Below, piece after piece: positions 6,512 to 38,102 of a DNA stretch of 64,000 nucleotides. The notes beneath the pieces are model-generated. The model was not told where the DNA came from. It was given only the letters and a program-made list of their open reading frames with translations, and searched no databases. The stretch lies in NCBI GenBank assembly GCA_001443495.1, contig LDXR01000014.1, forward strand, positions 8,684 to 72,683, read 5' to 3'. How positions within the stretch are numbered: position 1 is the stretch's first letter; the number at the start of each line of letters is the position of its first letter. The DNA comes from a candidate division NC10 bacterium CSP1-5. GTDB lineage: Bacteria; Methylomirabilota; Methylomirabilia; Methylomirabilales; CSP1-5. The position numbers and the translations under genes are program-made.

Positions 6512-6546
6512 TTCACGGTCATCGGTCGTCTGTCATCGGTCATCGT
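6511..6546. repeat. Heptamer repeat, GGTCATC type
   Basis: Units GGTCATC GGTCGTC TGTCATC GGTCATC follow the right arm of the inverted element with a strict 7-bp period. Confidence 0.7.
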
Positions 6547-10563: not shown

Positions 10564-10634
10564 AGCGTATTCCCCCTTCTTGTCAACGCCCGGATCGCCT
10601 CACAAACTATTACAAACGCATTTCATTTTCTGAC

Positions 10635-10732: not shown

Positions 10733-10781
10733 GGCTCACCGTACCATGCTCTCTTCCTACCGGTCAAGGTGATCTCCCGAG

Positions 10782-17299: not shown

Positions 17300-17370
17300 G
17301 GTGGCTGGTGGTTGGCGACTGGTGGTTGGTCCTACTCACCAATCACTAATCACTAATCACCAGTCACTAC
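17300..17370. repeat. Heptamer hairpin repeat, GGTGGTTGG/CCAATCACT type
   Basis: The left arm (GGTGGCTGGTGGTTGG units) and right arm (CCAATCACTAATCACTAATC) are complementary if G-T pairs are allowed, and both repeat every 7 bases. It lies in the pgeF-yggS gap and provides the pgeF stop codon. Confidence 0.8.
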
Positions 17371-18296: not shown

Positions 18297-18319
18297 GGGC
18301 GGCCCGGAGAGGGCCGCCC
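18297..18319 (-). terminator. Terminator after ftsZ
   Basis: GGGCGGCCC and GGGCCGCCC form a perfect 9-bp stem with a 5-base loop, 20 bases past the ftsZ stop. On the minus strand it is followed by GGTTATTTT. It closes the dcw operon. Confidence 0.8.
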
Positions 18320-18339: not shown

Positions 18340-19488
18340 TCACTCCGCCTGGCGGCGGAGGAACGTCGGGATGTCGAGTTCCTCCTCGTCCAGCTCGGCG
18401 AGCGTCAACTGGGCCGCACCTACCTCTAGCCTGCCCCCCCGCCGCCTGAGATACCCCGGCCGTTCGACTACCTTGCTCGCATAGGCCTTGAGGTCGGCGA
18501 TCTTGGTCTGCTCGGTCGCCTTCGCCTGCTGTTGCTCAAACCCGGTCGCGATGACCGTCACCCGCACCTCGCGGTTCATGCGCTCATCGATCACCGCTCC
18601 GAAGATGATGTGGGCATCGGGATCAGCGGCGGCATAGATCGCCTGACCGACCTGCTCGACCTCATGGAGGCAGAGGTCCGGACCGCCGGTGATGTTGAGC
18701 AAGACCCCGCGGGCCCCCTGGATGGAGACATTCTCCAGGAGGGGGCTATTGATGGCCCGCTGCGTCGCCTCGACGGCGCAGTCCTCGCCGACGGCATGAC
18801 CGGTCCCCATCATGGCCAGCCCCCGCTCGGCCATGATGGTCCGCACATCGGCGAAATCCACATTGACGAGCCCAGGGATCACGATGAGATCCGAGATCCC
18901 CTGGACCGCCTGGCGGAGGACGTCGTCGGCAAGCTTGAAGGCCTCGAGAAAGGTCGTGGACCGATCGGCGATGGCGAGGAGTTGCTGGTTGGGAATGGTA
19001 ATCAGGGTATCAACCTTCTCCTTGAGCTCCTGCAGGCCCCGCTCGGCCTGCGCCATTCGGACCTTGCCCTCAAACTGGAAGGGTTTGGTCACCACACCCA
19101 CCGTCAGGATCCCCAATTCTTTGGCGAGATTGGCGATCACGGGGGCGGCGCCTGTGCCGGTTCCCCCGCCGAGCCCCGCAGTGACGAAGACCATATCCGC
19201 GCTGTCCAGGAAGCTCAGGATCTTATCGGTGTCTTCGATGGCCGCCTTCCGGCCGATGTCCGGGTTCGACCCGGCTCCCAACCCCTTCGTGAGCTTCTCC
19301 CCGATCTGCAGCTTGCTCTCGACGGGGGAAGAATGGAGAGCTTGAGCGTCGGTGTTGATCACGATGAACTCCACCCCCGTCATCGACGAGGTCGCCATGC
19401 GGTTCACCGCATTCGAGCCCCCTCCTCCGACACCGACGACTTTGATCTTGGCCGTCTTCTGAGGACCCTCTTCTAATTGAAACGGCAT
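18340..19488 (-). CDS. ftsZ: Cell division GTPase FtsZ
   Basis: This 382-residue tubulin homologue polymerises into the division ring. Motifs are [22 protein letters not shown], the tubulin signature [10 protein letters not shown] near residue 107, and [11 protein letters not shown] with the T7-loop acids. The C-terminal peptide DIPTFLRRQ, which binds FtsA and other partners, is intact after a short linker. The length is usual. It follows ftsA with a 70-base gap that contains a repeat array, while the upstream dcw genes mostly overlap. Confidence 0.98.
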
Positions 19489-19522
19489 CGCTCACCCCCT
19501 CCTCTGTGTTAGCCCCAAAAAC

Positions 19523-19561
19523 GCTGTCAGCTGTCAGCCATCAGCCGTCTGATAGCTGTTA
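19523..19561. repeat. Heptamer repeat, AGCTGTC type, between ftsA and ftsZ
   Basis: CAGCTGTCAGCCATCAGCC units at 7-bp spacing occupy the ftsA-ftsZ gap and touch the ftsA stop. GCTGTCAGC and GATAGCTGTT give weak self-complementarity. The same unit appears at 5231 and 63350. Confidence 0.7.
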
Positions 19562-20797
19562 AAAGAATTCGCCGAACCACTCCCGCATCCTCTCTGTCAC
19601 CCGACTGAACAGGGCGCCCTCGGTGACCCGCCGGAACTTCCGCTGGTGTCGATTCTGGGACCCATACAGCACGAGACCCACGGCAGTCGCGTAGATCGGG
19701 CTCGCCACCACGTCGACGAGCCCCGCCACCCCTGCGGGGATTCCCCGTCTCACCGGCAATGTGAGGATCTCCTCCGCCAATTCCGGAACCCCAGGCATGA
19801 TTGAGGACCCGCCCGTCACGACCATCCCTCCGACGACCGTCTCTTCAAACCCGGCCCGCCGGATCTCCCGATCGACGAGGGAAAAGATCTCCTCGAGGCG
19901 AGGCCGGATAATCTCACACAGCATGTGTCGGCTGATGGTGCGGGACCGCCGACCGCCCACGCCCCCCACCTCGATATGCTCCTCCCGCTCGATCAGCGAG
20001 GCCACGGCGCATCCGTGTTTCTTTTTGATCTCCTCCGCTTCATGCATGGGAGTGCGTAACCCGATAGCGATATCGTTGGTGAGATGGTCTCCGCCGACCG
20101 CCAGCACCGCCGTGTGCCAGATGCTCCCCTCTTCGAAGACGGCGATGTCGGAAGTGCCGCCGCCGATATCCACCAGGACCGCGCCGAGGTCTTTCTCGTC
20201 GGAGCTGAGGGTCGAGAGAGAAGAGGCGAGCTGCTGGAGCACGATGTCCTGGACCTCGAGCCCGGCGCGGTTGCAGCATTTGATGATGTTCTGGGCCGAG
20301 GTGACGGCCCCGGTCACGATGTGGACTTCGGACTCGAGCCGCACCCCGGTCATCCCCAGTGGTTCCTTGATCCCCCCCTGGCCGTCCACGATGAACTCCT
20401 GGGGCAGGACATGGATCACCTCGCGATCCACGGGGAGGGCGACCGCCTTGGCGGCGTCAATGACCCGGTCCACATCCTTTTGGGTGATCTCTCGACTCTT
20501 GCTCGAGACGGCAATGACGCCGCGGCTGTTGATCCCCTTGATGTGGCCCCCGGCGATCCCCACGAAAACGGAATGGACATCCACCCCGGCCATGAGCTCC
20601 GCCTCTTCCAGGGCGCGCTTGATGGAGTCCACCGTGACCTCGATGTTGATCACGACCCCCTTCCGGAGCCCCTTGGAGGGACTGGTCCCGACGCCGATGA
20701 TGTCCAGGCCCCCATCGTCGAGAAGCTCGGCGATGATGGCGCAGATCTTGGTGGTGCCGATGTCCAATCCCACGATCACGTCATTTTCCCGTGGCAC
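19559..20797 (-). CDS. ftsA: Cell division protein FtsA
   Basis: The 412-residue actin-like ATPase tethers FtsZ to the membrane. It has the phosphate-binding loops GLDIGTTKICAII and VDIGGGTSDIAVF, the SHS2 region, and an adenosine loop in GGMVVTGGSSIMPG. The C-terminus ends RMREWFGEFF, an amphipathic membrane-targeting helix. The start is GTG, after GGAGG, three bases past the ftsQ stop. Confidence 0.97.
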   Translation of the reverse strand: MPRENDVIVGLDIGTTKICAIIAELLDDGGLDIIGVGTSPSKGLRKGVVINIEVTVDSIKRALEEAELMAGVDVHSVFVGIAGGHIKGINSRGVIAVSSKSREITQKDVDRVIDAAKAVALPVDREVIHVLPQEFIVDGQGGIKEPLGMTGVRLESEVHIVTGAVTSAQNIIKCCNRAGLEVQDIVLQQLASSLSTLSSDEKDLGAVLVDIGGGTSDIAVFEEGSIWHTAVLAVGGDHLTNDIAIGLRTPMHEAEEIKKKHGCAVASLIEREEHIEVGGVGGRRSRTISRHMLCEIIRPRLEEIFSLVDREIRRAGFEETVVGGMVVTGGSSIMPGVPELAEEILTLPVRRGIPAGVAGLVDVVASPIYATAVGLVLYGSQNRHQRKFRRVTEGALFSRVTERMREWFGEFF

Positions 20798-20800
20798 CTC

Positions 20801-21574
20801 TCATCCTCCTTTCTCGGGCGGCTTCAGGATCACCCGCCCGGGAAATCTGAGATCCGCATACGCGAAACCCTGCAGCCGCTCCTCGCGATGACCCAGGGCC
20901 AGGCTGAGACGATGTAGTTGCGCGAGGGGATCCGGGCCGATCCGCAGAATCGCCCTGCCCCCCGCCAGGCGCAGGACATAGTTGCCGTCCGCCTCGGCGG
21001 TCACCTCCTCCACCAGTGTCTGCCTGAGGAGCGGTGCCTCCCGGAGCAGCTCGAGGAGCTCAAGCCCACCCAGGAGTCGCCGGTCGTCGAGATGCTCCCC
21101 GGCCCGGGCCTCGGCTCTCCAGGCTGCCCGCAGGAGCGGCAGGGCCTGCCCCGGGCGTGCCCGCTTCTCCTCAAGGATGACGGCATCAGCGCTCAGCAGA
21201 AACGTCTTCCCGAGGGACAGGAGGGCGACGGGCCGTCGCTCCTCGACGGTGATGATCAGGCTGAGGGGGGGCTGCCGCTGGATCGAGGCGCTCAAGACCC
21301 AGGGATGGGTCGTGATCCTGCCAGCCAGCTCCTCGAGATCCAGTTGGAGGATGTTGACCGGCGGCCGGAGCCGCAACCGGGAAAGGATCTCGGCTGTCTC
21401 CACGTGGACATTTCCCCGGACCCGGATCTCACGCACCTCAAGCACCGAGAGCTGACGCAGGGACCCATGGGCCCACCAGACGCCCCCAATGACCAGGGCC
21501 ACCGCGGTGGTGGTGGGGACGGCGATCATCCATCGCCGCCAGCGGCCATCACTTTCCTTTCGTCTCCGACGCAC
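20801..21574 (-). CDS. ftsQ: Cell division protein FtsQ
   Basis: GTG 21574 with GAGGAGGGG just before it gives 257 residues. A basic N-terminus (RRRRK) and one membrane span near residues 17-35 are followed by the POTRA domain (VLEVREIRVRGNVHVETAEIL) and the FtsQ/DivIB C-terminal domain. This single-pass protein links early and late division proteins through FtsL and FtsB. Divergent sequence is normal for the family, and the position between murB and ftsA supports the call. Confidence 0.93.
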   Translation of the reverse strand: MRRRRKESDGRWRRWMIAVPTTTAVALVIGGVWWAHGSLRQLSVLEVREIRVRGNVHVETAEILSRLRLRPPVNILQLDLEELAGRITTHPWVLSASIQRQPPLSLIITVEERRPVALLSLGKTFLLSADAVILEEKRARPGQALPLLRAAWRAEARAGEHLDDRRLLGGLELLELLREAPLLRQTLVEEVTAEADGNYVLRLAGGRAILRIGPDPLAQLHRLSLALGHREERLQGFAYADLRFPGRVILKPPEKGG

Positions 21575-21586
21575 TTCCCCTCCTCG

Positions 21587-21638
21587 GAGTTCACAGTTCA
21601 CAGCAGAAGGAGATACCTTTACCCGTGAACCGCGAACG
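21587..21638. repeat. Short heptamer hairpin, GTTCACA type, between murB and ftsQ
   Basis: GAGTTCACAGTTCACAG on the left faces CCGTGAACCGCGAACG on the right, a short version of the GTTCAxx hairpins found elsewhere in the dcw cluster. Confidence 0.5.
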
Positions 21639-21640
21639 CT

Positions 21641-22558
21641 CTAGTCATCTCCGACGACCCGAACCTCCAGCTCGAGCTCCACCTGCATCTTCTCCCGGAC
21701 CTGGCGTTGCATCAGATCAATGAGGGCCAGCACATCCGTCGCCGTCGCCCCCCCCAGGTTGATGATGAAGTTTCCGTGTTTCGGCGAGATGCAGGCACCC
21801 CCGACCCGCACGCCCTTGAGCCCCGCCTTCTCCACGAGGCGGCCCGCATACTCCCCAGGTGGATTCTTGAATACGGAGCCTGCCGATCGCCACTCCACCG
21901 GCTGTCCCCGATTCCGCTGGATGAGGTTCGCTGAGATCCGACGCCGAATCTCACCGGCGTCGCCCTGCTCCAGATCGAAGGCCGCCTCGAGGAGGACGCA
22001 TCCCTCCGGCAGGGAGGAGCGTCGGTACGAAAACTGCAACCGGTCCCGCGAAAAGACGTGCTCATCCCCCTCGCGTGTCAGCAGCCGCACTGCCACCAGG
22101 TGATCGGCGATACATCCCCCAAAGGCGCCGGAGTTCCCCCGGACTGCGCCCCCGACGCTCCCGGGGACCCCCGCCAGGCACTCCACCCCGCTGAGGGCGA
22201 GCTTGGAACAGAAGGCCACCAGTCGACTCAGGCGGACTCCGGCACCAGCCGAGACTCGCCTTCCCGCCACGTTCAGCTGAGTGAAGATCCCCTCGAGATG
22301 AAGAACCACCCCTCGAAAGCCCCCATCGCGGACCAACAGGTTGCTCCCGCCTCCCAAGACGAGGTAGGGCACCCCCTCCTCTCGGCAGAGCCGTAGGGCA
22401 GCCCGGACGTCCGCCTCACCTTCGGGAAAGACCATGATGTCTGCAGGCCCCCCAATGCCGAAGGAGGTATATTTACCGAGGGGCTCCCCGTACACGATGC
22501 GCCCCTTGATCTGTTGTTCCAGCCTTTCTTTGAGCGTCGCTCCCACCATGCCTCTCAA
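21641..22558 (-). CDS. murB: UDP-N-acetylenolpyruvoylglucosamine reductase MurB
   Basis: The 305-residue flavoenzyme reduces UDP-GlcNAc-enolpyruvate to UDP-MurNAc. FAD-binding motifs are YTSFGIGGPAD, VLGGGSNLLV and GVPGSVGGAVRGNSGAFGG. The catalytic serine is in RSAGSVFKNP near residue 226, and the C-terminus keeps SPKHGNFIINLG. It lacks the extra type I loop, so it belongs to the type II class. It lies downstream of murC, separated by a repeat hairpin. Confidence 0.96.
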   Translation of the reverse strand: MRGMVGATLKERLEQQIKGRIVYGEPLGKYTSFGIGGPADIMVFPEGEADVRAALRLCREEGVPYLVLGGGSNLLVRDGGFRGVVLHLEGIFTQLNVAGRRVSAGAGVRLSRLVAFCSKLALSGVECLAGVPGSVGGAVRGNSGAFGGCIADHLVAVRLLTREGDEHVFSRDRLQFSYRRSSLPEGCVLLEAAFDLEQGDAGEIRRRISANLIQRNRGQPVEWRSAGSVFKNPPGEYAGRLVEKAGLKGVRVGGACISPKHGNFIINLGGATATDVLALIDLMQRQVREKMQVELELEVRVVGDD

Positions 22559-22561
22559 TGT

Positions 22562-22654
22562 CGTTCATGGTTCAGGGTTCAGGGTTCAGGGTTCATGGTA
22601 AGAGCCTAGTTTGCGCCGTCCCCACTCTGAACGCTGAACCATGAACTATGAACC
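22562..22654. repeat. Heptamer hairpin repeat, GGTTCAT/GGTTCAG type, between murC and murB
   Basis: Five units of GGTTCAG/GGTTCAT on the left are complementary to CTGAACGCTGAACCATGAAC on the right, with about 27 bases between the arms. The right arm reaches into the last codons of murC. Confidence 0.85.
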
Positions 22655-24022
22655 TCTTTCGAGGCGGCGGACGATCTCCTCCCCCACCTGCCAGATGTCT
22701 CCGGCCCCCAAGGTGATCACCATATCTCCAGGGCGGAGCATCGGGATCAACACGTCCGGGATCGCCTCCTTATCCGGGACAAACGTGGCATGGCGATGTC
22801 CATGCTCCAACGCCCCCTCGGCGATCTCCCTCCCGCTGACGCCGGGGATGACCGGCTCACCAGCGCCGTACACCTCGGTCACCACGAGCACGTCGGCCTG
22901 GTAAAAGGCGGTGAAGAACTCTCCGAGCAGATACTTGGTTCTCGTGTATCTGTGAGGCTGAAAGACCACGACCACCCGCCGCCCAAAGCCGTCCTTGGCC
23001 GCATCGAGGGTCGCGCGGATCTCGGCGGGGTGGTGGCCGTAATCATCCACCACCAGAATCCCGCCAACCTCGCCCTTCACCTGGAAGCGGCGATCGACAC
23101 CGGCGAACTGCGCCAGCGCTTCCCGGATGACCTCCGGCTCGATGTTCAGCTCGAGACCGACCGCGACGGCGGCTAACGCGTTGCTCACATTATGGATTCC
23201 CGGCACGCGCAGCCGGAACTTCCCCAACTCCTCCTGCCGCGCCACGACGGCGAACTCCGATCCCATGCCTTCCAGGTGGATCTCCCTGGCAGTGATGTCC
23301 GCCTGGGTCCTGAGCCCGTACGTGATGAACCGCTTCTCCACCGAGGGGAGGAGGGTCTGAATGTTCTCCTGATCAAGACACAGGATGGCGGACCCGTAGA
23401 AGGGGACCTTATTGATGAACTGCAGGAAGGTTTCTAGAATGTGCGGCAGGTCCCGGTAGTAGTCGAGATGCTCGGCGTCGATGGTCGTTACCACCGCGAT
23501 CGTCGGTGAGAGCTTCAGGAAGGATCCATCGCTCTCATCCGCCTCCGCCACCAGGAAGTCTCCCCGGCCGAGCTTCGCATTGGTGTCGAGACCTCTCAGG
23601 CGTCCGCCGATGACGATCGTGGGATCGAGCCCCCCTTCGGCAAGGACGGTCGCCAGCATGGAGGTCGTCGTGGTCTTGCCGTGGGTGCCCGCCACCGCGA
23701 CGCCGTACTTGAGACGCATCAGTTCCGCCAGCATCTCCGCACGTGGGATCACCGGAATCAGGTGCTGGCGGGCGGCGGCGACCTCCGGATTATCCAGGGC
23801 CACCGCCGAAGAGCGAACCACCACATCGGCGCCCTGTACGTTCTCCGGCGCATGCCCGATGGACACCCGGATTCCCAGGCTCTCGAGACGCCGAGTCACT
23901 TCCGACGCCTTCAGATCGGATCCTGTCACGAGATACTCCATGTTGTGGAGCACCTCTGCAATCCCGCTCATCCCGGCCCCGCCGATCCCCACGAAATGGA
24001 TGTGCCGGTACCGCCGCACCAT
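22646..24022 (-). CDS. murC: UDP-N-acetylmuramate-L-alanine ligase MurC
   Basis: The 458-residue ligase adds L-Ala to UDP-MurNAc using ATP. It shows the N-terminal nucleotide motif [16 protein letters not shown], the ATP loop [13 protein letters not shown] near residue 112, the [11 protein letters not shown] segment typical of MurC, and [11 protein letters not shown] in the C-terminal domain. The start is three bases past the murG stop. Its last residues may be shaped by the adjoining repeat. Confidence 0.97.
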
Positions 24023-24025
24023 CGG

Positions 24026-25174
24026 TCAATCCCCCGTCCGGCGACCCCACCGCTGCTCCGCGATGTGTCTCGCCGACCGCTCGCCCCGCCGCTCTCCCGC
24101 CAGCTGACAGACCAGATCGGCAAGATGGGAGGCCGCATCAGGCCGCCCCAGACTGTGCGCCGCCTGGCCCATCGCGGTGAGCGTCCCGGGGTCGTCGAGC
24201 AACTCATACAGCTCCACTGCGAGTCGATGACCGGTGAGATCCCGGTCGAGGATCATCCATGCACCCCCGACCCTCACCACCTCCTCCGCGTTTTCCCGCT
24301 GATGATCATTGGCGGCGAAGGGATAGGGGATGAGGAGGGCCGGTTTTCCGAGCGCGGTGAGCTCCGCGATGGTGGTCGCCCCGGCCCGGCACACCACGAG
24401 GTCCGCCGCCGCGTAGGCCGAGGCCATGTCCTGGACAAAGGGGAGAACCCGTGCCTCGCCCTTCCAGGCCTGGTACGCCTCCTCCACTTCGCCCCGGTCC
24501 CGCTCCCCCGTCGCGTGGATGATCTGGATCCGATCCCACAATCGACGGAGATGCGGAAGGGCCTCGACCATGGCGCGATTGATCCGGTGCGCCCCCTGAC
24601 TTCCTCCAAAGATCAGCACGGTCCTCCTGGTGGGGTCCAACTGGAAGGCCTCGAGGCCCTTGCGTCGGTCCCCCTCCAGGATCTCCCGGCGGATCGGATT
24701 CCCCGTCACCACCACCTCGCGTCCGAACAACGGGCCGGTCGCCTCCAGGCTCACCGCGACCACGTTTGCAACCCGGGCGAGGACCCTGTTGGTCAGTCCG
24801 GGGGAGCGATTCTGTTCGTGGATGAGGAGGGGGATCCGCCTGAGGACCGCCGCCATACCGATCGGCCCGGCCGCATAGCCGCCCACCCCGACCACCGCGC
24901 GAGGTCGATGACGCCCGAGGAGCCGCAGGGCATGGATCAGGGCCTGAGGGAGGAGCATCAGGGATCTGGCCTGCGCCCCGACCCTCACCCCCTGGAGTCC
25001 CTCGACATGGATCGTCTCCAGGGAAAACCCCTCTGCCGTGAAGGCGGCCGCCTCCAGGCCTCGGGCCGTTCCAACCATCAGGGCTTCGACATCCCGGGCC
25101 CGGAGCTCGCGGGCCAGGGCGAGCGCCGGAAAGACATGGCCCCCGGTTCCCCCGCCTGCCAGCACCACCTTCAT
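24026..25174 (-). CDS. murG: MurG glycosyltransferase (lipid II synthesis)
   Basis: ATG 25174 after GAGGAGG gives 382 residues; it overlaps ftsW by four bases. The enzyme transfers GlcNAc to lipid I at the inner face of the membrane. It has the MurG motifs LAGGGTGGHVFPALALA, GVGGYAAGP, HEQNRSPGLTNR, IFGGSQGAHRIN, VVCRAGATTIAEL and PYPFAANDHQ. An in-frame start further upstream would read through ftsW and is rejected. The tail after about residue 360 is Arg-rich. Confidence 0.97.
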   Translation of the reverse strand: MKVVLAGGGTGGHVFPALALARELRARDVEALMVGTARGLEAAAFTAEGFSLETIHVEGLQGVRVGAQARSLMLLPQALIHALRLLGRHRPRAVVGVGGYAAGPIGMAAVLRRIPLLIHEQNRSPGLTNRVLARVANVVAVSLEATGPLFGREVVVTGNPIRREILEGDRRKGLEAFQLDPTRRTVLIFGGSQGAHRINRAMVEALPHLRRLWDRIQIIHATGERDRGEVEEAYQAWKGEARVLPFVQDMASAYAAADLVVCRAGATTIAELTALGKPALLIPYPFAANDHQRENAEEVVRVGGAWMILDRDLTGHRLAVELYELLDDPGTLTAMGQAAHSLGRPDAASHLADLVCQLAGERRGERSARHIAEQRWGRRTGD

Positions 25175-26298
25175 GGCGTTCCTCCTCGCAGACGGAAATA
25201 GCCGGAATAGGCCGGAGAACGGCGGGAGATGCTCAACAGGATGCCCACCCCGAAGAGGGTCATCACTAACGAGGTGCCGCCGAAGCTCAGAAAGGGAAGA
25301 GGAAGACCGGTGATCGGTAGGAGGCCGACGACCATCCCCACATTCACCACCGCCTGCGTCACGATGAGACAAGTGATCCCCAGGGCCAGATAGCACCCGA
25401 AGGGATCAGAGGCCTGAAGCGCGATCCGGATTCCCCGCCACAGGAAAAAGGCAAAGAGGCCCAGGACCCCTATGGCGCCGGCAAAGCCCAACTCTTCGCC
25501 GACGATGGCGAAGATAAAGTCGGTATGAGGCTCGGGCAGATAGAAGAGCTTTTGCATCCCATCGCCCAGCCCGGCCCCGAGCGAGCCCCCCCGCCCCAAG
25601 GCGATCTGGGACTGGTTCAACTGGTAGAGAAACCGCGGAGAGACCTGAGAGGGGTCCACCATCGCCAGGACCCTCGCCCGGACGTGGGGGACCTGCAGCA
25701 GGAGCAGACCACCCAGGGGCAGAAAACCCAGGCCGGTGAGCGCCAGGTGCGATACCTTGGCCCGCGCGACAAAGAGGAGGGCCCCCACCGTCGCGAGGAT
25801 GACCAGGGCGGTCCCGTAGTTGGGTTGAAGCGCGATGAGGAGAGCGACGACCATGGCGAGGATCATGGGGGGCAAGAGCCCGTCCGTGAACTCTCGCACC
25901 CGCTCTCCCTTTCGTGCCAGGAGCCGGCTGAGGTACAGGAGCAGCCCGAACTTGGCGAGCTCGGCCGGCTGAAATGACAGGCTGGAAAACCGAAGCCACC
26001 GTCGGGCGCCGTTCACCCGTGTCCCCACCGCCGGGATCAGGACGATGATCAACAAGAGGACCGAGATCACATAGAGGAGGGGGGCCCACCGCTGAAGCTG
26101 GCGGTAGTCCTGTCCCAGCACCCAGATGAGGGCCGTGAGTCCGACCACGGCCCAGACGACCTGCCGCTTCAGAAAGAAGGAGGGATCCCCGAATTGCTCC
26201 TGGGCCCGAATGGCGCTGGCACTGTAGACCATGAGAATCCCCAGGCCTACCAGGATCAGCGTGATGGTAAAGAGAACTTTATCGTACTCCCCCCGCAT
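25171..26298 (-). CDS. ftsW: FtsW, septal peptidoglycan glycosyltransferase
   Basis: This 375-residue SEDS protein has about ten membrane segments, the first in LFTITLILVGLGILMVY. Family motifs include VNGARRWL with the conserved RW, FQPAELAKFGLLLYL, LQPNYGTALVI and PLPFLSFGGTSL. With FtsI it polymerises lipid II at the septum. It overlaps murD by 20 bases and murG by four, which indicates tight coupling. Confidence 0.97.
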   Translation of the reverse strand: MRGEYDKVLFTITLILVGLGILMVYSASAIRAQEQFGDPSFFLKRQVVWAVVGLTALIWVLGQDYRQLQRWAPLLYVISVLLLIIVLIPAVGTRVNGARRWLRFSSLSFQPAELAKFGLLLYLSRLLARKGERVREFTDGLLPPMILAMVVALLIALQPNYGTALVILATVGALLFVARAKVSHLALTGLGFLPLGGLLLLQVPHVRARVLAMVDPSQVSPRFLYQLNQSQIALGRGGSLGAGLGDGMQKLFYLPEPHTDFIFAIVGEELGFAGAIGVLGLFAFFLWRGIRIALQASDPFGCYLALGITCLIVTQAVVNVGMVVGLLPITGLPLPFLSFGGTSLVMTLFGVGILLSISRRSPAYSGYFRLRGGTP

Positions 26299-27679: not shown

Positions 27680-27689
27680 CCTTTGCCCT

Positions 27690-27789
27690 GGTTCATGGTT
27701 CATGGTTCATGGTTCATAGAAAGATCGAGACTCTGTTCGCCGGTCATCGGTACATCCGTCTCTGAACCCTGAACTCTGAACCATGAACG
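27690..27789. repeat. Heptamer hairpin repeat, GGTTCAT type, between mraY and murD
   Basis: Four perfect GGTTCAT units face CTGAACCCTGAACTCTGAACC and CATGAAC on the right, with a 41-base centre that carries a CGGTCATCGGT motif. The arms can form a long hairpin. It is one of the clearest copies. Confidence 0.88.
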
Positions 27790-27791
27790 CC

Positions 27792-28877
27792 TCATCGTAG
27801 TTTGAGGGTGGTGAGCGAGATGAGCGCCAACAGGAACGAAATAATCCAGAACCGCACAATGATCTTGGGTTCGGCGACCCCGTTGAGTTCGTAATGATGG
27901 TGGATAGGTGCCATGCGAAAGATCCGCCGCCCGGTGGTCTTGTACGAGAAGACCTGAAGGAGGACCGAGATCGCCTCAATGACGAAGACCCCTCCGATGA
28001 TCATGAGGAGCAACTCATGCTTGGTCAGCACCGCCAATAGGGCCAGGGCCGTCCCGAGTGCCAACGATCCGGTGTCCCCCATAAAGATCTGCGCGGGATA
28101 GGCATTGAACCAGAGAAACCCCAGCGAAGCCCCCACCACCGCGCCCCCAAAGATGGTGAGTTCGCTCGATTCGCGAACGTAGATCACCTGAAGGTAGCGG
28201 GCGATGGCGCCATGCCCGGCCAAGTAGGCCAGGACGGTGTAGGCGCCAGCCGCCATGATCATCGGGCCGGTCGCCAGCCCGTCCAGGCCGTCGGTGAGGT
28301 TCACGGCGTTACTACAGCCGACGATGACGAGCATCACCAGGAGGACGTAGACCCACTCCAGGTCCGGCACCAACCACTTGACAAAGGGGATGCTCAGGCG
28401 CGTGGTGAATTCGTCCACCGGGCTGAGATAGAGGTAGAGACCCACGCCGAGCCCCAGCATGATCTGCCAGGTAAATTTGTAGCGCGGGGCCAACCCTTTG
28501 CTGCTCTTCCGCCTCAGCTTCAGGTAATCATCGCAAAACCCCACGGCGCCCATCCCCAGTGTCCCCAGGAGGATCACCCAGACAAATCGATAGGTCAGGT
28601 TTGCCCACAAGAGCGTCGATCCGATGACCGCGGCAACAATCAAGACTCCCCCCATCGTGGGCGTTCCGGCCTTGCCGAGGTGGGTTCGCGGTCCATCCTC
28701 CCGGATCTGCTGCCCGATGTGTAGCGCCCGAAGTCGCTCGATGATATAGGGACCCAGGACGAGGCTGAGCAAGAGGGATGTGACGATGGCGCCCGCCGTG
28801 CGGAACGTCACATAGCGGAAGACATTGAAGACCGTGTGGTAATCGACCAGCGGATACAGAAGGTGGTAGAGCATCAC
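27792..28877 (-). CDS. mraY: Phospho-MurNAc-pentapeptide translocase MraY
   Basis: The 361-residue membrane enzyme makes lipid I from UDP-MurNAc-pentapeptide and undecaprenyl phosphate. It has about ten membrane spans. Conserved motifs include LGKAGTPTMGG, CDDYLKLRRKSSKGL with the catalytic acids, NAVNLTDGLDGLATG, FMGDTGSLALG and MAPIHHHYEL. The start overlaps the murF stop. Confidence 0.98.
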   Translation of the reverse strand: MMLYHLLYPLVDYHTVFNVFRYVTFRTAGAIVTSLLLSLVLGPYIIERLRALHIGQQIREDGPRTHLGKAGTPTMGGVLIVAAVIGSTLLWANLTYRFVWVILLGTLGMGAVGFCDDYLKLRRKSSKGLAPRYKFTWQIMLGLGVGLYLYLSPVDEFTTRLSIPFVKWLVPDLEWVYVLLVMLVIVGCSNAVNLTDGLDGLATGPMIMAAGAYTVLAYLAGHGAIARYLQVIYVRESSELTIFGGAVVGASLGFLWFNAYPAQIFMGDTGSLALGTALALLAVLTKHELLLMIIGGVFVIEAISVLLQVFSYKTTGRRIFRMAPIHHHYELNGVAEPKIIVRFWIISFLLALISLTTLKLR

Positions 28878-30250
28878 AATCCCTCGAGGAGCTTTTCAAG
28901 CCCCATCCCTCGCGACGCTTTCAAAAGGATCCAGGGGGCTCTGGTCACGTGCGCCCTGAGCACCGCCCGCGCCTCCCCATGGTCGCGACAGCAGTGAATC
29001 CTGGTGACGTCTAGCCCATTGAGGGCGGCCCCTTCGCCGATGGCTCGGGCGCGTTCTCCGACCGTGATCAGCAGTGCCGGGCGCCACCCAGCCACCAGGG
29101 CTCCGATGCGCCGATGGGCGGCCTCCGAGACTGACCCCAGCTCCAGCATATCCCCAAGCACAACGATGGCCTCCCGCCCCTTGGAGAGTCGGACGAAGGC
29201 CTCGAGCGACGCCGCCATCGAGGTCGGATTCGCGTTATAGGCGTCGTTGACGATCACGGCCCCCGAGGGATGGAGGATCCTTTCCATTCGCATGGGTGCG
29301 GCCGGCGCCTGCTCGAGCCCGGCGGTGATCGCGTCCAGGTCAAGACCGAAGGCGGTCCCGACGGCGGCCGCGGCCAGCGCGTTCCACACATTCAGACGGC
29401 CCGGGGTGTTCAGTCGGACCGACCGCCCCTTCCTCCCCGCAGCAAGGGTGAAGAGCGTCCGGCCGTTCTGGCCACTTCGGACCCGCTCCGCCCGGACATC
29501 CGCCCGTTCGTGAAGGCCGAAGGTGATCAGACGGCCCCGGACCCTGGGGAAGAGCCGAGTGAGATACGGATCATCCCTGTTCAGGACGGCCACGCGGTCC
29601 CCCGTGAGAAACGGGAGGAGTTCCCCCTTCGCCTCGGCCACCTCTTCTACCGACCCGAGAAACTCGAGGTGCGCCTCTCCAATATTCGTGATCACCCCCA
29701 CGTCCGGCTGCGCCATCTCCGCCAGGCGATGGATCTCCCCCCGCGCGTTCATGCCCAGCTCGAGAACCGCGGCCTGGTGCTCTCGCCGGAGCTGCAAGAG
29801 GGTGAGGGGCACGCCGATCAGATTGTTCAGGTTCCCCAATGAGACAAGGACACGATAGCCCTGGCGCAGGACGCTCCCCGTCATCTCTTTCGTGGTGGTT
29901 TTCCCGTTGCTCCCCGTAATCGCCACAACCCTCGCCGGATAACGCCTGCGCCAGCACTCTGCAATCTGGCCCAGCGCCCACTGCGTCTCCTCGACCTGAA
30001 TCACGACGAAACCAGGTGGAAGAGGGATGCTGGGGGGCGCTGCAACCACGCACCCGAGAGCCCCCTTGCCTGCCGCCTCTGACAGGAAGGTATGACCATC
30101 GAAGCTCTTGCCCTTGAGGGCGACAAAAAAGTCGCCGGGCTTGAGGGTTCGGCTGTCGGTGGAGAAACTGGCCATCTCCCGGCCCGGGTCGCCCCCGACG
30201 AGCGTGCCCTTCGTGGCCTCCACTACCTCCTGTACTGTTAACCCCACCAT
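28874..30250 (-). CDS. murF: UDP-MurNAc-tripeptide D-alanyl-D-alanine ligase MurF
   Basis: The 458-residue ligase completes the pentapeptide with D-Ala-D-Ala. Motifs are STDSRTLKPGDFFVALKG, the ATP loop AITGSNGKTTTKEM, LGMNARGEIHRLAEM, TNIGEAHLEFLGS and NDAYNANPTSM. ATG 30250 is used; an upstream in-frame extension would translate the heptamer repeat between murE and murF. The ribosome site is weak. Confidence 0.96.
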   Translation of the reverse strand: MVGLTVQEVVEATKGTLVGGDPGREMASFSTDSRTLKPGDFFVALKGKSFDGHTFLSEAAGKGALGCVVAAPPSIPLPPGFVVIQVEETQWALGQIAECWRRRYPARVVAITGSNGKTTTKEMTGSVLRQGYRVLVSLGNLNNLIGVPLTLLQLRREHQAAVLELGMNARGEIHRLAEMAQPDVGVITNIGEAHLEFLGSVEEVAEAKGELLPFLTGDRVAVLNRDDPYLTRLFPRVRGRLITFGLHERADVRAERVRSGQNGRTLFTLAAGRKGRSVRLNTPGRLNVWNALAAAAVGTAFGLDLDAITAGLEQAPAAPMRMERILHPSGAVIVNDAYNANPTSMAASLEAFVRLSKGREAIVVLGDMLELGSVSEAAHRRIGALVAGWRPALLITVGERARAIGEGAALNGLDVTRIHCCRDHGEARAVLRAHVTRAPWILLKASRGMGLEKLLEGL

Positions 30251-30304
30251 ATCGCCATTCCGATGATTCAACGACCATCCGAGCGTTTTGCGTCCACAGT
30301 CCAC

Positions 30305-30374
30305 GGGTGGTTGGTGATTCGTGATTGGTGGTTGGGAAGGAACACCAATCACCAGCCACTAGTCACCAGTCACC
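30305..30374. repeat. Heptamer hairpin repeat, GGTGATT/CCAATCAC type, between murE and murF
   Basis: GGTGGTTGGTGATTCGTGATTGG is followed after about 13 bases by CACCAATCACCAGCCACTAG, its complement, both with a 7-bp period. The right arm forms the last codons of murE. Confidence 0.85.
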
Positions 30375-31872
30375 TGGTTCCTCCGTTGTAGCCGTGCTCC
30401 CCCAGAACCTCGCGGGTCACCTCCCGGTCATCGAAGGGAATCTTTTTCTCACCGACGACCTGTGTCGTCTCGTGTCCCTTGCCGGCGATCAGGATGACAT
30501 CGCCGGGCCGCGCCTCCCCCACCGCCGCCCTCACGGCGTCACGCCGATCCACGCAGCGCATCGTCCTCTCCGCCCCGCCCGACACGCTTCGGATCCCCGC
30601 CTCGATCTCCTCCAAGATGGTCTCGGGTGATTCGCTCCTCGGGTTATCAGAGGTGAGGATGACCCGGTCGGCCCACCGCACGGCCGCCTCTCCCATCAGC
30701 GGGCGCTTCTTCCGGTCCCGGTCGCCGCCGCATCCGAAGAGGACGATCAGCCGACCCGCGGAGAGCTCCCGCAGAGACCGGAGGACCCACTCGAGGGCAT
30801 CAGGGGTGTGGGCGTAATCCACCACCACCTTGAAGGGCTGTCCGACCTCGACCGGTTCCAGCCGGCCGGGGATGCGGCGCACCGTGGGCAGACCCTCGAG
30901 GATCCGCTCGATGGGGATCTTGAGCACTCCTGCCACACCCACCGCGGCCAGGAGGTTATAGAGATTGTGCCGACCAAGCAGCGGGGATCGCAGTCCGCCC
31001 GTCCCCCACGGGGTGCGGATGAAGGCACGGATCCCCTGCAGGTCATACGCAGGAGCCACCGCAGTCACATCTGCCTCAGCCGTCAGCCCGTACGTGACCA
31101 CAGGGGCACGTGCCATCTCGCGGAGTCGCTTGCCCGCCGGGTCATCCAGGTTGATGACGGCCGTTCCGCCCTTCTCCCGGAGCATCGTGAAGAGCTGAGC
31201 CTTGGCGGCGAAATAGTCTTCCATCGTCCCGTGGAAGTCGAGGTGATCCTGGGTCAGGTTGGTGAAGACGGCGACGTCAAAGGCACACGCCGCCACCCGA
31301 TGCAGCACCAGGGAGTGGGAAGAGACCTCCATCACGGCGGCGTCCGCCCCCTGACCACGCATCCACCGGAGCAGCGCCTGCAAATCCGAGGCCTCAGGGG
31401 TGGTCCGCTCTGCCTCGCGGCGGACCCCTCCGCACCGGTACTCGACCGTCCCGATAATCCCGGCCCGATGGCCGCCGGCCTGGAGCGCCGCCTCGACCAG
31501 ATAGCTCACAGTCGTCTTGCCATTGGTTCCCGTGATCCCCGTGAGACACAGCTCACGTGAGGGTGCATCGTAAAAGCGCGCCGCCACGTGGGAGAGGGCG
31601 CGGCGCGTCTCCTCAACCTGGACGATAGTCCCAGGCACCGGTGTCCCCCCGGCGCCTCGCACATCCCTCTCAACGAGGAAGGCACCCGCCCCCCGGCTGA
31701 GCGCCTCGGGGATGAACCGATGGCCGTCATGTCGCGCTCCCCGGATGCACACAAAGAGGCTCTGGGGTCCTGTCCGCCGGGAGTCGTACTCGACCGAGGC
31801 GATCTCCTGGTCCAACGCCCCCTGCAGGAGCCGGTGGGGAAAGCCGTCAATTAAATCTCGGAGAGGCTTCAT
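30370..31872 (-). CDS. murE: UDP-MurNAc-dipeptide:meso-diaminopimelate ligase MurE
   Basis: ATG 31872 after GGAGG gives 500 residues. The ATP loop is GITGTNGKTTVSYLV, and EVSSHSLVLHRV, NLTQDHLDFHG and VDYAHTPDALE are family marks. The TSDNPRSE motif near residue 390 selects meso-diaminopimelate over lysine, so the peptidoglycan is predicted to be of the Gram-negative DAP type. The dap genes at 39.5-42.6 kb would supply the substrate. It overlaps ftsI by 26 bases. Confidence 0.97.
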   Translation of the reverse strand: MKPLRDLIDGFPHRLLQGALDQEIASVEYDSRRTGPQSLFVCIRGARHDGHRFIPEALSRGAGAFLVERDVRGAGGTPVPGTIVQVEETRRALSHVAARFYDAPSRELCLTGITGTNGKTTVSYLVEAALQAGGHRAGIIGTVEYRCGGVRREAERTTPEASDLQALLRWMRGQGADAAVMEVSSHSLVLHRVAACAFDVAVFTNLTQDHLDFHGTMEDYFAAKAQLFTMLREKGGTAVINLDDPAGKRLREMARAPVVTYGLTAEADVTAVAPAYDLQGIRAFIRTPWGTGGLRSPLLGRHNLYNLLAAVGVAGVLKIPIERILEGLPTVRRIPGRLEPVEVGQPFKVVVDYAHTPDALEWVLRSLRELSAGRLIVLFGCGGDRDRKKRPLMGEAAVRWADRVILTSDNPRSESPETILEEIEAGIRSVSGGAERTMRCVDRRDAVRAAVGEARPGDVILIAGKGHETTQVVGEKKIPFDDREVTREVLGEHGYNGGTR

Positions 31873-33580
31873 CACGCCTCCCGGCGACTCGCTCGGGTGA
31901 GGTGGTAGGGGGGGACGCAAGATAGTTCAAGGTCTCCCGGGCGATCTCTCGAAAGACGGGGGCTGCAACGGTCCCCCCCCAGGCAATGCCCTGGGGCTCA
32001 TCGACCAAGACGAGGATGGCGAGCCTTGGGTCCTCGGCGGGGACGTAGCCGACGAAGAAGGCCACCACCTTCGTGGGCGAATAACGCCCGGTCTCATGAT
32101 CGAGCTTTTGCGCGGTGCCGGTCTTGCCCGCGACTCGGTGGCCGGGAAGCGCCGCCCCCTGCCCGGTCCCCCGCTCGACGACCTCGGTGAGGATCGACGT
32201 GAGGGTCCTGGCGGTCTCAGGCGAGATGACGCGCCTGACCGCCAGGGGTTTGGTCTCCTCGACGCTCCCATCGGGATGGCGAACCGCCAGGAGCGCACGC
32301 GGCCGGATCAGGGACCCCCCGTTCGCCACGGCGCCCATGGCGCTGATCATCTGAAGCGCCGTCGCCGAGATCTCGTGACCGATGGAGAGGGCGCTCAGGG
32401 AGAGGTGTGACCAGTGCCGCGGCCGGCGGATGACCCCGTGGTTTTCACCGGGCAGATCCACGCCGGTCGGGACGCCGAAGCCGAAGCTCGTGATGTAGCT
32501 ATAGAACCGCTCCTTGCCCACCTTCATCCCCACCTTGACGGCCCCCACGTTGCTGGAGAAGGCCATGACGTCCCGGAAGGTCATCCACCCGTGTTTCTCG
32601 TGGTCCCGGATCTTGACCCCCCCGACCTCGATGGTCCCCTCTTCGCCGTAGAAGAGATCGTCGGGGCGCACCAGTCGCTCCTCGAGCGCCGCCGCGGCGA
32701 GGACGAGTTTGAAGGCCGATCCGGGCTCATAGGGATCGGTGAGGGCCCGATTCCGGCGAAAGGCGGGGGACGTACTCGCGTAGGCGCTGGGGTTATACGC
32801 GGGGCTGTTGGCGAGGGCCAGGATCTCTCCGGTCGCGGGATCCATCACAATGGCCGTCCCGGCCCTCGCCCCGGAGCGTCGCACCGCCGCGTCGAGTTCC
32901 CGCTCTGCTACATGCTGGATGACCTCATCAATCGTCAGGTAGAGATCGGCGCCCGGGTGAGTTTCCTTGGATTCCCGAAAGACGATCCTGCCCCTGGCGT
33001 CCACGCGACTCACGAAGGACCGCGGTCCGCCGGTCAGCAGACGCTCATATGCAAGCTCGAGCCCCTCCAATCCTCTGTTATCAACCCCCGCGAATCCGAT
33101 GAGGTGTGCCGCGAGGTCCTTCTTAGGATAATACCGTTTCCCTTCAGGCACAAGGCCGACTCCCGGAAGGCTCAGCCTCGAAACGGCCTCCGCCTGTTCG
33201 GGATCCACCTGGCGTTGGATCCACACGAAGGGTTGATCACTGCGGAGCTTCGCCTGAATCTCACGGACGGGAAGCCTGAGGACCCGGGCCAGCCGCGTCG
33301 CGGTGGCGCTCGGGTCCTGCACCAGGCCCGGATGGGCAAAGACCGACGCGGCATCCAGGGTGATCACCAACATCCGCCCGCGGCGATCATAGATCGTCCC
33401 GCGCTTGGCAGCCACGGGGATGCGGCGTTCATACTGCCCTTCGGCTCGGGTACCGAGACGCTCGTGCCGGATGATCTGAATCACGTAGAGGCGAGCGCCG
33501 ACGACGCCCAACAGGGCGGCGAGGAGGACGGCCAGGACGGCGATCCTGGCGCGGGGAGGGGTCCCGAAGGACGCGGTCAT
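31847..33580 (-). CDS. ftsI: Septal transpeptidase FtsI (penicillin-binding protein)
   Basis: The 577-residue protein has one N-terminal membrane span (about residues 12-32) and a dimerisation domain. The transpeptidase domain carries the SxxK motif in EPGSAFKLVL, SSN in AFSSNVGAVKV and KTGT in VAGKTGTAQK. It cross-links septal peptidoglycan with FtsW. There is no PASTA domain. It starts right at the ftsL stop after GAGGAG. Confidence 0.97.
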   Translation of the reverse strand: MTASFGTPPRARIAVLAVLLAALLGVVGARLYVIQIIRHERLGTRAEGQYERRIPVAAKRGTIYDRRGRMLVITLDAASVFAHPGLVQDPSATATRLARVLRLPVREIQAKLRSDQPFVWIQRQVDPEQAEAVSRLSLPGVGLVPEGKRYYPKKDLAAHLIGFAGVDNRGLEGLELAYERLLTGGPRSFVSRVDARGRIVFRESKETHPGADLYLTIDEVIQHVAERELDAAVRRSGARAGTAIVMDPATGEILALANSPAYNPSAYASTSPAFRRNRALTDPYEPGSAFKLVLAAAALEERLVRPDDLFYGEEGTIEVGGVKIRDHEKHGWMTFRDVMAFSSNVGAVKVGMKVGKERFYSYITSFGFGVPTGVDLPGENHGVIRRPRHWSHLSLSALSIGHEISATALQMISAMGAVANGGSLIRPRALLAVRHPDGSVEETKPLAVRRVISPETARTLTSILTEVVERGTGQGAALPGHRVAGKTGTAQKLDHETGRYSPTKVVAFFVGYVPAEDPRLAILVLVDEPQGIAWGGTVAAPVFREIARETLNYLASPPTTSPERVAGRRDEASPRFN

Positions 33581-33931
33581 CTACGGCTCCTCGAGCTGGA
33601 TGATCTGCCCCGGACGGGGGTTGACCATGCCCAGCTCACGTCGGGCGAACTCTTCGACCCTCTTCAGGGAGCGGAGTCGGCTGAGCTCCATCCGGAGCGT
33701 CTTCCCTTCCTGGGTCAGGCTGGCCTGCGCGGCCCGGTGCCGCTCGATCTGGTAGCCAAGACGCACCACCTGGATGTGCTGCCACACGTAGAAGAGCAGA
33801 CCGAGCAGCAGCACCCCGCACACGATGAGCTTCTGTTTGGACTCGGGTGACAGCCCCCGCTTCGCGCGCCGGGCCCGGACTCCGAAGGGGAGCTCCTGCT
33901 GGATCGATCCTGAGCGGACCTCAGGGGCCAT
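33581..33931 (-). CDS. ftsL: Cell division protein FtsL
   Basis: The 116-residue protein has a basic cytoplasmic N-terminus, one membrane span near residues 35-55 (LIVCGVLLLGLLFYVW) and a coiled-coil periplasmic part ending ARRELGMVNPRPGQII, the usual FtsL end. It bridges FtsQ/FtsB and FtsI. Position between rsmH and ftsI and overlap with rsmH confirm the call. Confidence 0.93.
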   Translation of the reverse strand: MAPEVRSGSIQQELPFGVRARRAKRGLSPESKQKLIVCGVLLLGLLFYVWQHIQVVRLGYQIERHRAAQASLTQEGKTLRMELSRLRSLKRVEEFARRELGMVNPRPGQIIQLEEP

Positions 33932-34841
33932 CCTGCTCCTCCCGCCGCTCGGCGGCCCGCAGCTTAGCGCTCCGAGCCCGAGGGTTCACGCCCGTCTCGC
34001 CAGCCGACGGCGTCACAGGACGCCGGGTGAGGATCCGGACACGGGGGACCGCGCCCGGCGCCGCCAGCCGACGGAATAGATGCTTTACCACCCGATCCTC
34101 CAGGGAGTGAAAGGCGATCACACAGATCCGTCCCCCAATTTTGAGCAGGTCTATCGCCGCCTCAAGCGCCTCCTCCAGCCCCTCCAGCTCTTGATTGACG
34201 GCGATGCGGATCGCCTGAAAGGTGCGCGTCGCCGGATGGATCCGGCGGGGCCAGAGTCGCCGCGGGATGGCCCGGCTGATGACCGTGGCCAGCTCCTGCG
34301 TGGTCTCTAAGGATCCGTGATCGCGCGCGCGCGCGATTGCCCGGGCAATCTGACGGGCCCACCGCTCCTCGCCGTACTCTCGAATGATCCGCGCGAGGCG
34401 CTCCTCCGGAAGGGCGTGGAGGAGCGCCCGGGCCGTTAGCCCCCCACCGTGCCGGTCCATTCGCATATCCAGAGGCCCCTCCATGCTGAAGCTAAACCCC
34501 CGACCAGGATCGGCGAGCTGCAGCGACGAGACCCCCAGATCACAAAGGATCCCGTCGAATCGCCCCAGGTGGAGCGTGGACACCAGCACGGGCAGCTCCC
34601 GGAAATCCCCACGGATCAATCGCACCCGGTCGCCGAAACGCTCCAGTGCACCCCTGGCAACGGCAATCGCCTCGGGGTCCCGATCGACCCCGACTAGCCG
34701 AGATGGCGGTCCGGCCGCATCCAGGATCGCTGCGGCGTGGCCTCCACCCCCGACGGTGCAGTCCAAGTACAGCCCGTCCGGCCTCGGTCCGAGGGCGGCC
34801 ACCACCTCCCGGACCAGGACCGGGATATGCCCAGTCGTCAC
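33921..34841 (-). CDS. rsmH: 16S rRNA (cytosine1402-N4)-methyltransferase RsmH
   Basis: The 306-residue SAM-dependent enzyme methylates C1402 of 16S rRNA. Motifs: HIPVLVREVVAAL, LDCTVGGGGHAAAIL (SAM loop), GVDRDPEAIAVA, DLGVSSLQLADPGRGFSF, PATRTFQAIRIAVN and FHSLEDRVVKHLFR. The start is GTG, overlapping the STAS gene stop as GTGA. Confidence 0.97.
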   Translation of the reverse strand: MTTGHIPVLVREVVAALGPRPDGLYLDCTVGGGGHAAAILDAAGPPSRLVGVDRDPEAIAVARGALERFGDRVRLIRGDFRELPVLVSTLHLGRFDGILCDLGVSSLQLADPGRGFSFSMEGPLDMRMDRHGGGLTARALLHALPEERLARIIREYGEERWARQIARAIARARDHGSLETTQELATVISRAIPRRLWPRRIHPATRTFQAIRIAVNQELEGLEEALEAAIDLLKIGGRICVIAFHSLEDRVVKHLFRRLAAPGAVPRVRILTRRPVTPSAGETGVNPRARSAKLRAAERREEQDGP

Positions 34842-35200
34842 CCCGCCATGGCGAGGCGCTTGAGTCGACAGGCCTGTCGGGCGCCGCGCTCCTCCCGGTA
34901 GTGCTCAAAAAATGGGAACACCCCGGCGGACCGAAACGTCTCCTCGACTGCGGGAGGGAGCGCCAGCAGACTCACATCGCCATCAAAGCGCCGGAGCCGG
35001 CACAGGGTGCTGGTCAAGACCTCGAGACTCTTCTCGTTCACCGACCGCAGGCGGCGACAGTCCAGAATGACCTGCAGGTACCCCTCTGCCGCCACCTTGA
35101 TGATGGCCTCGCGGAGCGCCATCATCCGCACGAGATCAATGGACCCTGCCAGCCGCAAGATCGCGATCCGTTCCGCTCTCTGTTTCTCCACTATGACCAT
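34838..35200 (-). CDS. STAS-domain protein inserted between mraZ and rsmH
   Basis: The 120-residue protein has the alternating strand/helix pattern of STAS (anti-sigma-factor antagonist) domains. These are AILRLAGSIDLVRMMALREAI, the central strand LQVILDCRRLRSVNEKSLEVL, and VSLLALPPAVEETFRSAGV followed by FPFFEHYREE. In SpoIIAA-type proteins a Ser sits at the loop after the central strand; here the loop has SVNEKS, so phosphorylation is possible but unproven. It overlaps rsmH by four bases and follows mraZ closely. The mraZ-rsmH pair is normally adjacent, so this gene may add a regulatory input to dcw expression. Confidence 0.75.
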   Translation of the reverse strand: MVIVEKQRAERIAILRLAGSIDLVRMMALREAIIKVAAEGYLQVILDCRRLRSVNEKSLEVLTSTLCRLRRFDGDVSLLALPPAVEETFRSAGVFPFFEHYREERGARQACRLKRLAMAG

Positions 35201-35213
35201 CTCTGCTCCATGG

Positions 35214-35657
35214 CTAGATTCCCAACTGGGTCAACTTGGTGGCGATATCTTCGAAGGTAACCGGGGAGGTCGTCAGGAACTGCTCCCAACGCTCCCGATC
35301 CCAGATCTCGATCCGATTCAGGGCCCCGACAATAATCACCTCCCGATTGAGACCGGCCTTCTCCCGGTGCTGGGGAGGGACCAGGATGCGTCCCTGTCCA
35401 TCGACCGGACTCTCAGTCGCCCCCGAATAGAAGAGGCGAAGGAAGGCGCGGATGTCCTTTTCAAAGTTGCTCTGGTTTTGGATTCTTTCCTCAAACCGTG
35501 CCCAGACATCGAGCGGGTAGGCGGTGATACAGGTGTCAAAGTCGGTGAGGACGAGGATGTTCTGACCCCGCTTCTTCAGCGTCTGGCGGAATCTGGCCGG
35601 GATGCTCAGTCGGCCTTTATCGTCGATGGTGTGCGGGAATCGTCCGATGAATCTCAT
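35214..35657 (-). CDS. mraZ: Transcriptional regulator MraZ
   Basis: The 147-residue protein has the two SpoVT/AbrB-like halves of MraZ, each with the DxxGRxxxP motif: IDDKGRLSIPARFR near residue 11 and VDGQGRILVPPQHR near residue 85. It assembles into a ring that binds TGGG repeats before its own gene and represses the dcw operon. Three such repeats are visible upstream. The ribosome site is GGGAAGG. Confidence 0.97.
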   Translation of the reverse strand: MRFIGRFPHTIDDKGRLSIPARFRQTLKKRGQNILVLTDFDTCITAYPLDVWARFEERIQNQSNFEKDIRAFLRLFYSGATESPVDGQGRILVPPQHREKAGLNREVIIVGALNRIEIWDRERWEQFLTTSPVTFEDIATKLTQLGI

Positions 35658-35682
35658 GACCTTCCCAAATATGCACCTTTTA

Positions 35683-35707
35683 TACCATTCCTTCCCACAT
35701 CATCCCA
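35683..35707 (-). promoter_or_regulatory. MraZ operator: three TGGNA repeats at 10-bp spacing
   Basis: On the minus strand TGGGA, TGGGA and TGGTA occur exactly 10 bases apart (ending at 35703, 35693 and 35683). The known MraZ box is a set of TGGG direct repeats with the same period. They begin about 13 bases past the -10 box, so bound MraZ would block transcription. Confidence 0.85.
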
Positions 35708-35719: not shown

Positions 35720-35748
35720 AAAATATCGTTTTAGAATCCTCTTGTCAA
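35720..35748 (-). promoter_or_regulatory. Main dcw promoter upstream of mraZ
   Basis: Minus strand TTGACA, 17 bases, TATTTT. The -35 is exact. It precedes the MraZ repeats and leads the whole mraZ-ftsZ cluster. Confidence 0.75.
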
Positions 35749-38001: not shown

Positions 38002-38021
38002 GATCGATCCCTCCTCCCTCA

Positions 38022-38102
38022 AGGTTCATGGTTCATGGTTGATGGTTCATGGAAAAACCTGGGCTCTTAACGAACCCTGAACCATGAACCCGAACTATGA
38101 AC
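38022..38102. repeat. Heptamer hairpin repeat, GGTTCAT type, upstream of panB
   Basis: GGTTCAT GGTTCAT GGTTGAT GGTTCAT on the left face CGAACCCTGAACCATGAACCC on the right, with about 18 bases between the arms. The unit matches 22562 and 27690. Confidence 0.88.

Follow-up and report, generated by a model that had tools for sequence, protein, structure and literature searches.

Many bacteria carry an excess of heptamer repeats for which there is no accepted origin, and the described systems closest to the one reported here are the paired GGGAATC heptamers of Xanthomonas and the paired sites of Geobacter. In Xanthomonas, Rehm et al. (2015, PMC4692102) found 70-75 convergent pairs of GGGAATC arrays per genome, forming inverted repeats that are dispersed, mostly intergenic and mostly located between co-directional genes, that usually keep the same gene context in two species while varying in length, and for which no link to mobile elements was noted. 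Octamers (GTTGCTYN) or heptamers (MTYCTGA) in short tandem arrays make up the sites of classes 1-3 in Geobacter metallireducens, which are paired on opposite strands at a variable distance; each class has one consensus, and the sites are proposed, without a test, as regulator sites and, in the text consulted, are not tied to operon joints (PMC2700814). Two further systems deserve comparison. Namely, the TAACTGA direct repeats of Beggiatoaceae, proposed by MacGregor (2015, PMC4679880) as a translational regulator site, are likewise intergenic heptamers, many of them beside start codons and common to distant phyla, and REPINs are hairpin-forming inverted doublets, dispersed over intergenic regions, whose REP sequence is conserved and linked to a RAYT gene (PMC3116915).

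The arrays studied here, which lie in a 64,000-nucleotide stretch of DNA (hereafter, the window) from a 2.77-Mb genome in 40 contigs (G000), resemble the Xanthomonas type in that they have a 7-bp period, are mostly intergenic and come as two close convergent arrays. However, the Xanthomonas repeats form a single G-rich family (GGGNATC), which has been studied for its quadruplexes, whereas here there are many families (GTTCAnn, TCAGCnn, GTGRYTR and others), none with a constant GGG run; what is more, each unit has two variable positions, and one and the same site has different units in different species. The pairing of short tandem arrays on opposite strands at variable distance is shared with Geobacter, whose sites differ in the respects just given, while TAACTGA is a single invariant heptamer with one inverted case only. 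As for REPINs, the likeness ends with the dispersed, hairpin-forming doublets: in place of a single palindromic REP we find many unit families with variable dinucleotides, no fixed palindrome and no correlation with RAYT genes. A literature search with the actual sequences found no paper, and for neither the rule of five fixed and two variable positions per unit (5+2 rule) nor the replacement of units at fixed operon joints did we find a report in the searchable open-licence literature. In our opinion, orthologous joints with replaced families, a 5+2 unit and a fixed polarity offer a concrete, testable case of array origin.

The minus strand of the window carries a dcw operon running from mraZ (35657) to ftsZ (18340), with the gene names of ten products confirmed against NCBIfam and with 'Candidatus Methylomirabilota' MAGs providing the closest named relatives of its MraY (72-73% identity), which makes an NC10 bacterium the most likely source. 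The original prediction described this operon as one of few-base overlaps interrupted by repeat arrays at five joints, and both the gene order and the overlaps stand after recomputation of the joint lengths: rsmH/ftsL, ftsI/murE, murF/mraY, murD/ftsW and ftsW/murG overlap by 11, 26, 1, 20 and 4 nt, respectively, the ftsL/ftsI joint measures 0 nt, and murG/murC and ftsQ/ftsA are each separated by 3 nt. All joints abut or overlap in this manner except murE/murF, mraY/murD, murC/murB, murB/ftsQ and ftsA/ftsZ, where gaps of 70-146 nt are found, and all five of these gaps indeed hold heptamer-type, period-7 arrays. Even an essential and otherwise overlapping operon tolerates arrays at set joints. 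An ORF resembling anti-sigma factor antagonists (STAS-type; 34838-35200) lies between mraZ and rsmH and is largely missing in G006. A second dcw cluster of the same assembly (L108, G000:C19:26001-46000), whose MraY and MurC are 59% identical and whose MurC match contains one in-frame stop, has no heptamer arrays and possibly represents a contaminating contig (assembly contamination 2.93%).

In the order of transcription, and giving array coordinates without strand, the murE/murF joint holds convergent GTGRYTR-type arrays (30303-30374, composed of 30303-30335 and 30343-30374) that include the murE stop codon, and the mraY/murD joint convergent GTTCAnn arrays (27689-27789, composed of 27689-27717 and 27760-27789). 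For murF and murD we adopted the starts favored by coding score and homology (approximately 30223 and 27679), which give gaps of approximately 146 and 112 nt; the longest-ORF starts fall within the arrays and would give gaps of 17 and 88 nt, respectively. At murC/murB, convergent GTTCAnn arrays (22562-22654, composed of 22562-22599 and 22624-22654) even provide the murC stop codon (GGTTCATAG). The murB/ftsQ joint has GTTCAca and GTTCGcg arms forming a 15-bp hairpin (21589-21637), and the ftsA/ftsZ joint an array of the AGCTGTC/AGCCATC type (19523-19555) with transcript arms CAGCTATCAG and CTGATGGCTG. Outside the dcw operon, the window contains GTTCA and GTCCG arrays flanking a dispersed core (6250-6545), a GTGATTR-type array (17336-17367) adjoining the 3' end of a minus-strand gene (17367-18194), and a convergent GTTCAnn element (38019-38090) upstream of a minus-strand gene starting near 38001. 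The dispersed core (AGAGCGAGGAGG...GAGCTCTTGG), about 200 bp long and without an Rfam match, lies between heptamer arrays not only at 6319-6545 of the window, but also at murC/murB of locus L091 and murB/ftsQ of locus L093, and is present in G005, G003 and G006.

Period 7 dominates the window, with 11 segments as opposed to 0 in shuffles over lags 4-24, and periods 9 and 8 are minor; in the few arrays of the latter two periods, mismatches do not cluster in two columns. The typical element consists of two convergent heptamer arrays and a spacer, some 70-120 nt in all, and, according to our own gene calls, 12 of 20 elements begin no more than 10 nt from the upstream stop codon. Convergent pairs outnumber divergent ones by 16 to 1 among the listed genome matches, and the fetched loci include 16 convergent, 0 divergent and 3 same-strand pairs, a count that is not independent of the former, since many of these loci were picked as pairs from it. 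The GTTCA unit, as seen in 57 arrays with 260 units, shows 86-96% conservation at positions 1-5, T, G or C at position 6 and mostly G or A at position 7, and the same pattern is seen in the 81 units that have GTTCA on both sides. Independently of the family, mismatches between neighbors gather in one adjacent pair of columns, with a value of 0.76 vs. 0.58 in G000 (z 10.1) and with z scores of 8.5 in congeners and 8.3 in other families, these sets being partly dependent, as the congener loci include repeats fetched by similarity to the window. Along long arrays the unit appears to drift: in NC10 the match is 0.77 at lag 7 and 0.50 at lag 42, and in other phyla it falls from 0.82 to 0.61 over the same lags, although the detector used here requires similarity between neighbors alone and may join two families. 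Moreover, copy number shifts in one arm without the other (G000 vs. G002, G003 vs. G006). Two traits, the 5+2 units and the near-constant convergent polarity, exceed what a plain tandem repeat would show. The 5+2 rule is hard to reconcile with simple, recent slippage of identical units, and we reject plain slippage of this kind, as adjacent units share their dinucleotide in 23% of cases vs. 17% expected.

How stable are these joints in evolution? In six congeners, arrays occupy nearly all of the corresponding dcw joints that are readable, an exception being murB/ftsQ of G002 with no clear array, and it is the heptamer family that varies by species. At mraY/murD, GTTCAnn is found in six species and a TCAGC-type unit in G005, the MraY of which is 97% identical to that of G000. 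At murC/murB, most species have GTTCAnn, while G005 has a GGTRTTG-type unit and G002 a TTCGAA-type unit together with GTTCA. The ftsA/ftsZ joint has AGCTGAC in G000, GTCCG and TTCGAA in G002, GTCCG and GGTGTTG in G006, and GTGAAGA in G001. Beyond the genus, G011 and G020 have TTCGA-type units at mraY/murD and AGGGT-type units at murC/murB, G019 has AACTGAC at mraY/murD, and G007 mixed 7- and 9-mers. On the other hand, G026 is nearly empty (4 nt at mraY/murD, 2 nt at murC/murB), and the f3 genomes (G008, G018) have array-free gaps of 75-78 nt at murE/murF and 36 nt at mraY/murD, with 25, 92 and 238 array-free nt at the other three joints of G008; gap starts in these comparisons are extrapolated from tblastn and possibly misplaced by a few residues, ftsQ being the least certain. 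The joints can therefore be open without arrays, or nearly closed. Unit turnover of the same kind is seen in an independent slot, ileS/lspA, with GTTCA in the genus (family f1), AGGGT-type units in several f6 genomes, an AACGT-type unit in G019 and only 7 array-free nt in f3. At several spacers elsewhere in the window, the sequence of G000 is altogether unlike that of G005 or G002, with flanks that are mostly 87-97% identical, and no clean occupied/empty insertion footprint was found between the close species compared.

The arrays belong to a genome-wide class and are not a dcw-specific device. Namely, at 2 mismatches the GTTCA-family 19-mer GTTCATGGTTCAGGGTTCA matches the genome 122 times and its reversed control 0 times; all six congeners have the 19-mer, its presence across the remainder of the order is uneven, and the sampled f3 and f7 genomes have no match, while the GTTCAnn pattern is found repeatedly in one Desulfobacterales and one Thermodesulfovibrionales genome. 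Other families of periods 7, 8 and 9 were found in approximately 240 kb of stretches spread over the genome outside the window, to which the analysis added loci picked around pattern matches. Most heptamer arrays, though not all, fall outside called genes, and elements also occur between hisB/hisH-type, ileS/lspA, purD/purE and dpp-type transporter genes. All 20 two-armed elements with called flanks lie between co-directional genes, but so do 132 of 153 gaps longer than 60 nt, and the former figure is thus no strong departure from background. As far as the dcw operon itself is concerned, 4 of its 5 gaps bear arrays vs. 10 of 111 other tandem gaps of 60-400 nt (p = 0.0006), a biased comparison, as the finding was selected for this property and a single operon amounts to a single sample. 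A scan covering the dcw regions of 80 genomes showed heptamer arrays after mraY in three further loci, those of a Desulfosarcina, a Thermodesulfovibrionales and a Colwellia, which fits gap availability.

Would these arrays matter for the transcript? It had been proposed that four of the five gaps have complementary arms and that the repeat arrays divide the operon into segments, which could have different mRNA levels. The arms can pair, but the count does not hold, since all five gaps can fold; the stability exceeds that of shuffles clearly at mraY/murD and murC/murB (z of -4.7 each for RNA in the coding orientation of G000), moderately at murB/ftsQ (-2.3) and ftsA/ftsZ (-1.8) and weakly at murE/murF (-0.9), with a mean of -3.0 over 17 elements of G000. 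Across the genus, the hairpin z ranges from -6.4 to +1.3: most congeners keep a stable hairpin at mraY/murD and murC/murB, and the other three joints do not preserve their stability. Neither a promoter nor an intrinsic terminator is predicted at any of the five joints, none of which has a G-C-rich stem followed by a T run, and Rfam models give 0 matches at the gathering score in the window, L093 and L091. The one minus-strand promoter-like site between 18000 and 36000 (TTGACA-17-TATTTT, 35720-35748) lies upstream of mraZ, and a terminator-like hairpin with 9 G-C pairs lies 3' of ftsZ on the same strand (18297-18319), such sites being about as numerous in the region as in shuffles and, consequently, weak evidence. 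Finally, compensatory pairing between the arms can be rejected: dinucleotides in register match 19 times, compared with 19.2 for a shuffled unit order and an expectation of 25.1 from re-pairing the arms of different elements, and there is no sign of selection for full pairing. What remains of the regulatory proposal is that the arrays are real, occupy the same joints genus-wide and are enriched in dcw gaps; against it, signals for transcription start or stop are not predicted, unit, copy number and stem strength shift between close species, the arms vary independently and the same elements sit in unrelated operons. Structure is present, without evidence for tuned regulation. The joints may affect mRNA levels, and on our best explanation any such effect would be incidental.

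This best explanation, to which we assign a probability of roughly 60%, is that of a rapidly replaced, genome-wide convergent heptamer element that is tolerated in the stretch separating a stop codon from the ribosome-binding site that follows. The elements would fill the space from the stop of one gene to the region where the next co-directional gene starts, and arrays would arise and be replaced quickly via a copying process such as replication slippage, template switching or the action of some enzyme. They would persist there because extra DNA may do the least harm at this spot, overlapping genes would exclude them, and the RNA hairpin would arise as a by-product, with perhaps a modest influence on decay or translational coupling. 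That said, several findings sit uneasily with this reading. The five conserved positions over 57 arrays suggest motif selection or templated synthesis and are not predicted by a plain "tolerated junk" view; dcw gaps are enriched in arrays; most congeners keep the stable hairpins at mraY/murD and murC/murB; and neither an enzyme nor a clean occupied/empty footprint was found. A further reading, namely dedicated copying in 7-nt steps in which five bases are copied faithfully and two almost at random, such that the unit drifts along an array and changes from species to species while site, step and convergence stay, strikes us as distinctly doubtful.

Could the hairpins nevertheless be functional, blocking 3' exonucleases or recruiting RNases and thereby setting dcw segments at different mRNA levels, with the sequence free to vary provided that a stem forms? 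The use of the same joints in readable congeners, the two widely kept stems and the dcw enrichment are all in line with this idea, and differential decay inside operon mRNAs, a known general phenomenon (PMC5927463), provides a precedent. However, the stem strength is lost at murE/murF, murB/ftsQ and ftsA/ftsZ, compensatory changes are missing, the same elements occur in unrelated operons, and the joints are array-free in f3 and two of them are without arrays in G026, so that we consider this account unlikely. Still less probable, in our view, is that a protein or an RNA reads the pentamer at 7-nt spacing in DNA or mRNA, with the two remaining bases as free linkers. While the 86-96% conservation of the pentamer and the near independence of neighboring dinucleotides (23% vs. 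17%) are what one would expect of such sites, and the paired inverted sites of Geobacter were proposed as global regulator sites (PMC2700814), the pentamer differs at the same site between close species and drifts within single arrays, and the examined flanking genes have no common function.

Two other accounts appear very improbable. REP/REPIN-like elements, with hairpins spread in trans by a RAYT (Y1 transposase), would resemble ours as dispersed intergenic inverted doublets (PMC3116915), and G000 does have one PF01797 match; yet the array-rich genomes G001 (92% complete) and G004 have none, GTTCA arrays are few or absent in the f4 genomes that have 3-13 matches, except G019, and many tandem heptamer families take the place of one conserved palindrome. 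RAYT can thus be rejected as the driver, as the Y1_Tnp genes do not correlate with the arrays, with the qualification that absence from draft genomes is not absolute. Equally, one could imagine that the hairpin folds the spacer out and keeps stop and start juxtaposed for translational coupling, as the arms often adjoin the upstream stop and the next start, but the path through the predicted fold (median 13) is no shorter than in shuffles (13.7), and we reject this possibility as well. The tolerated, rapidly replaced element remains our preferred reading.

Several other features were seen in passing. In L201, L204 and L206, the predicted downstream starts adjoin or sit inside the right arm (TGAACC-ATG) and have no obvious Shine-Dalgarno sequence. 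Long "morphing" heptamer arrays, in which the unit shifts stepwise while the 7-nt phase is kept, are present in L011, L012, L017, L024 and L027 (Desulfobacterota and Nitrospirota). Lastly, positions 10597-10737 of the window hold a dispersed repeat made of CATTAGAC and CCATTGCT units, which has many matches in G005 and G002; in its place, the orthologous site in G002 holds a different sequence.
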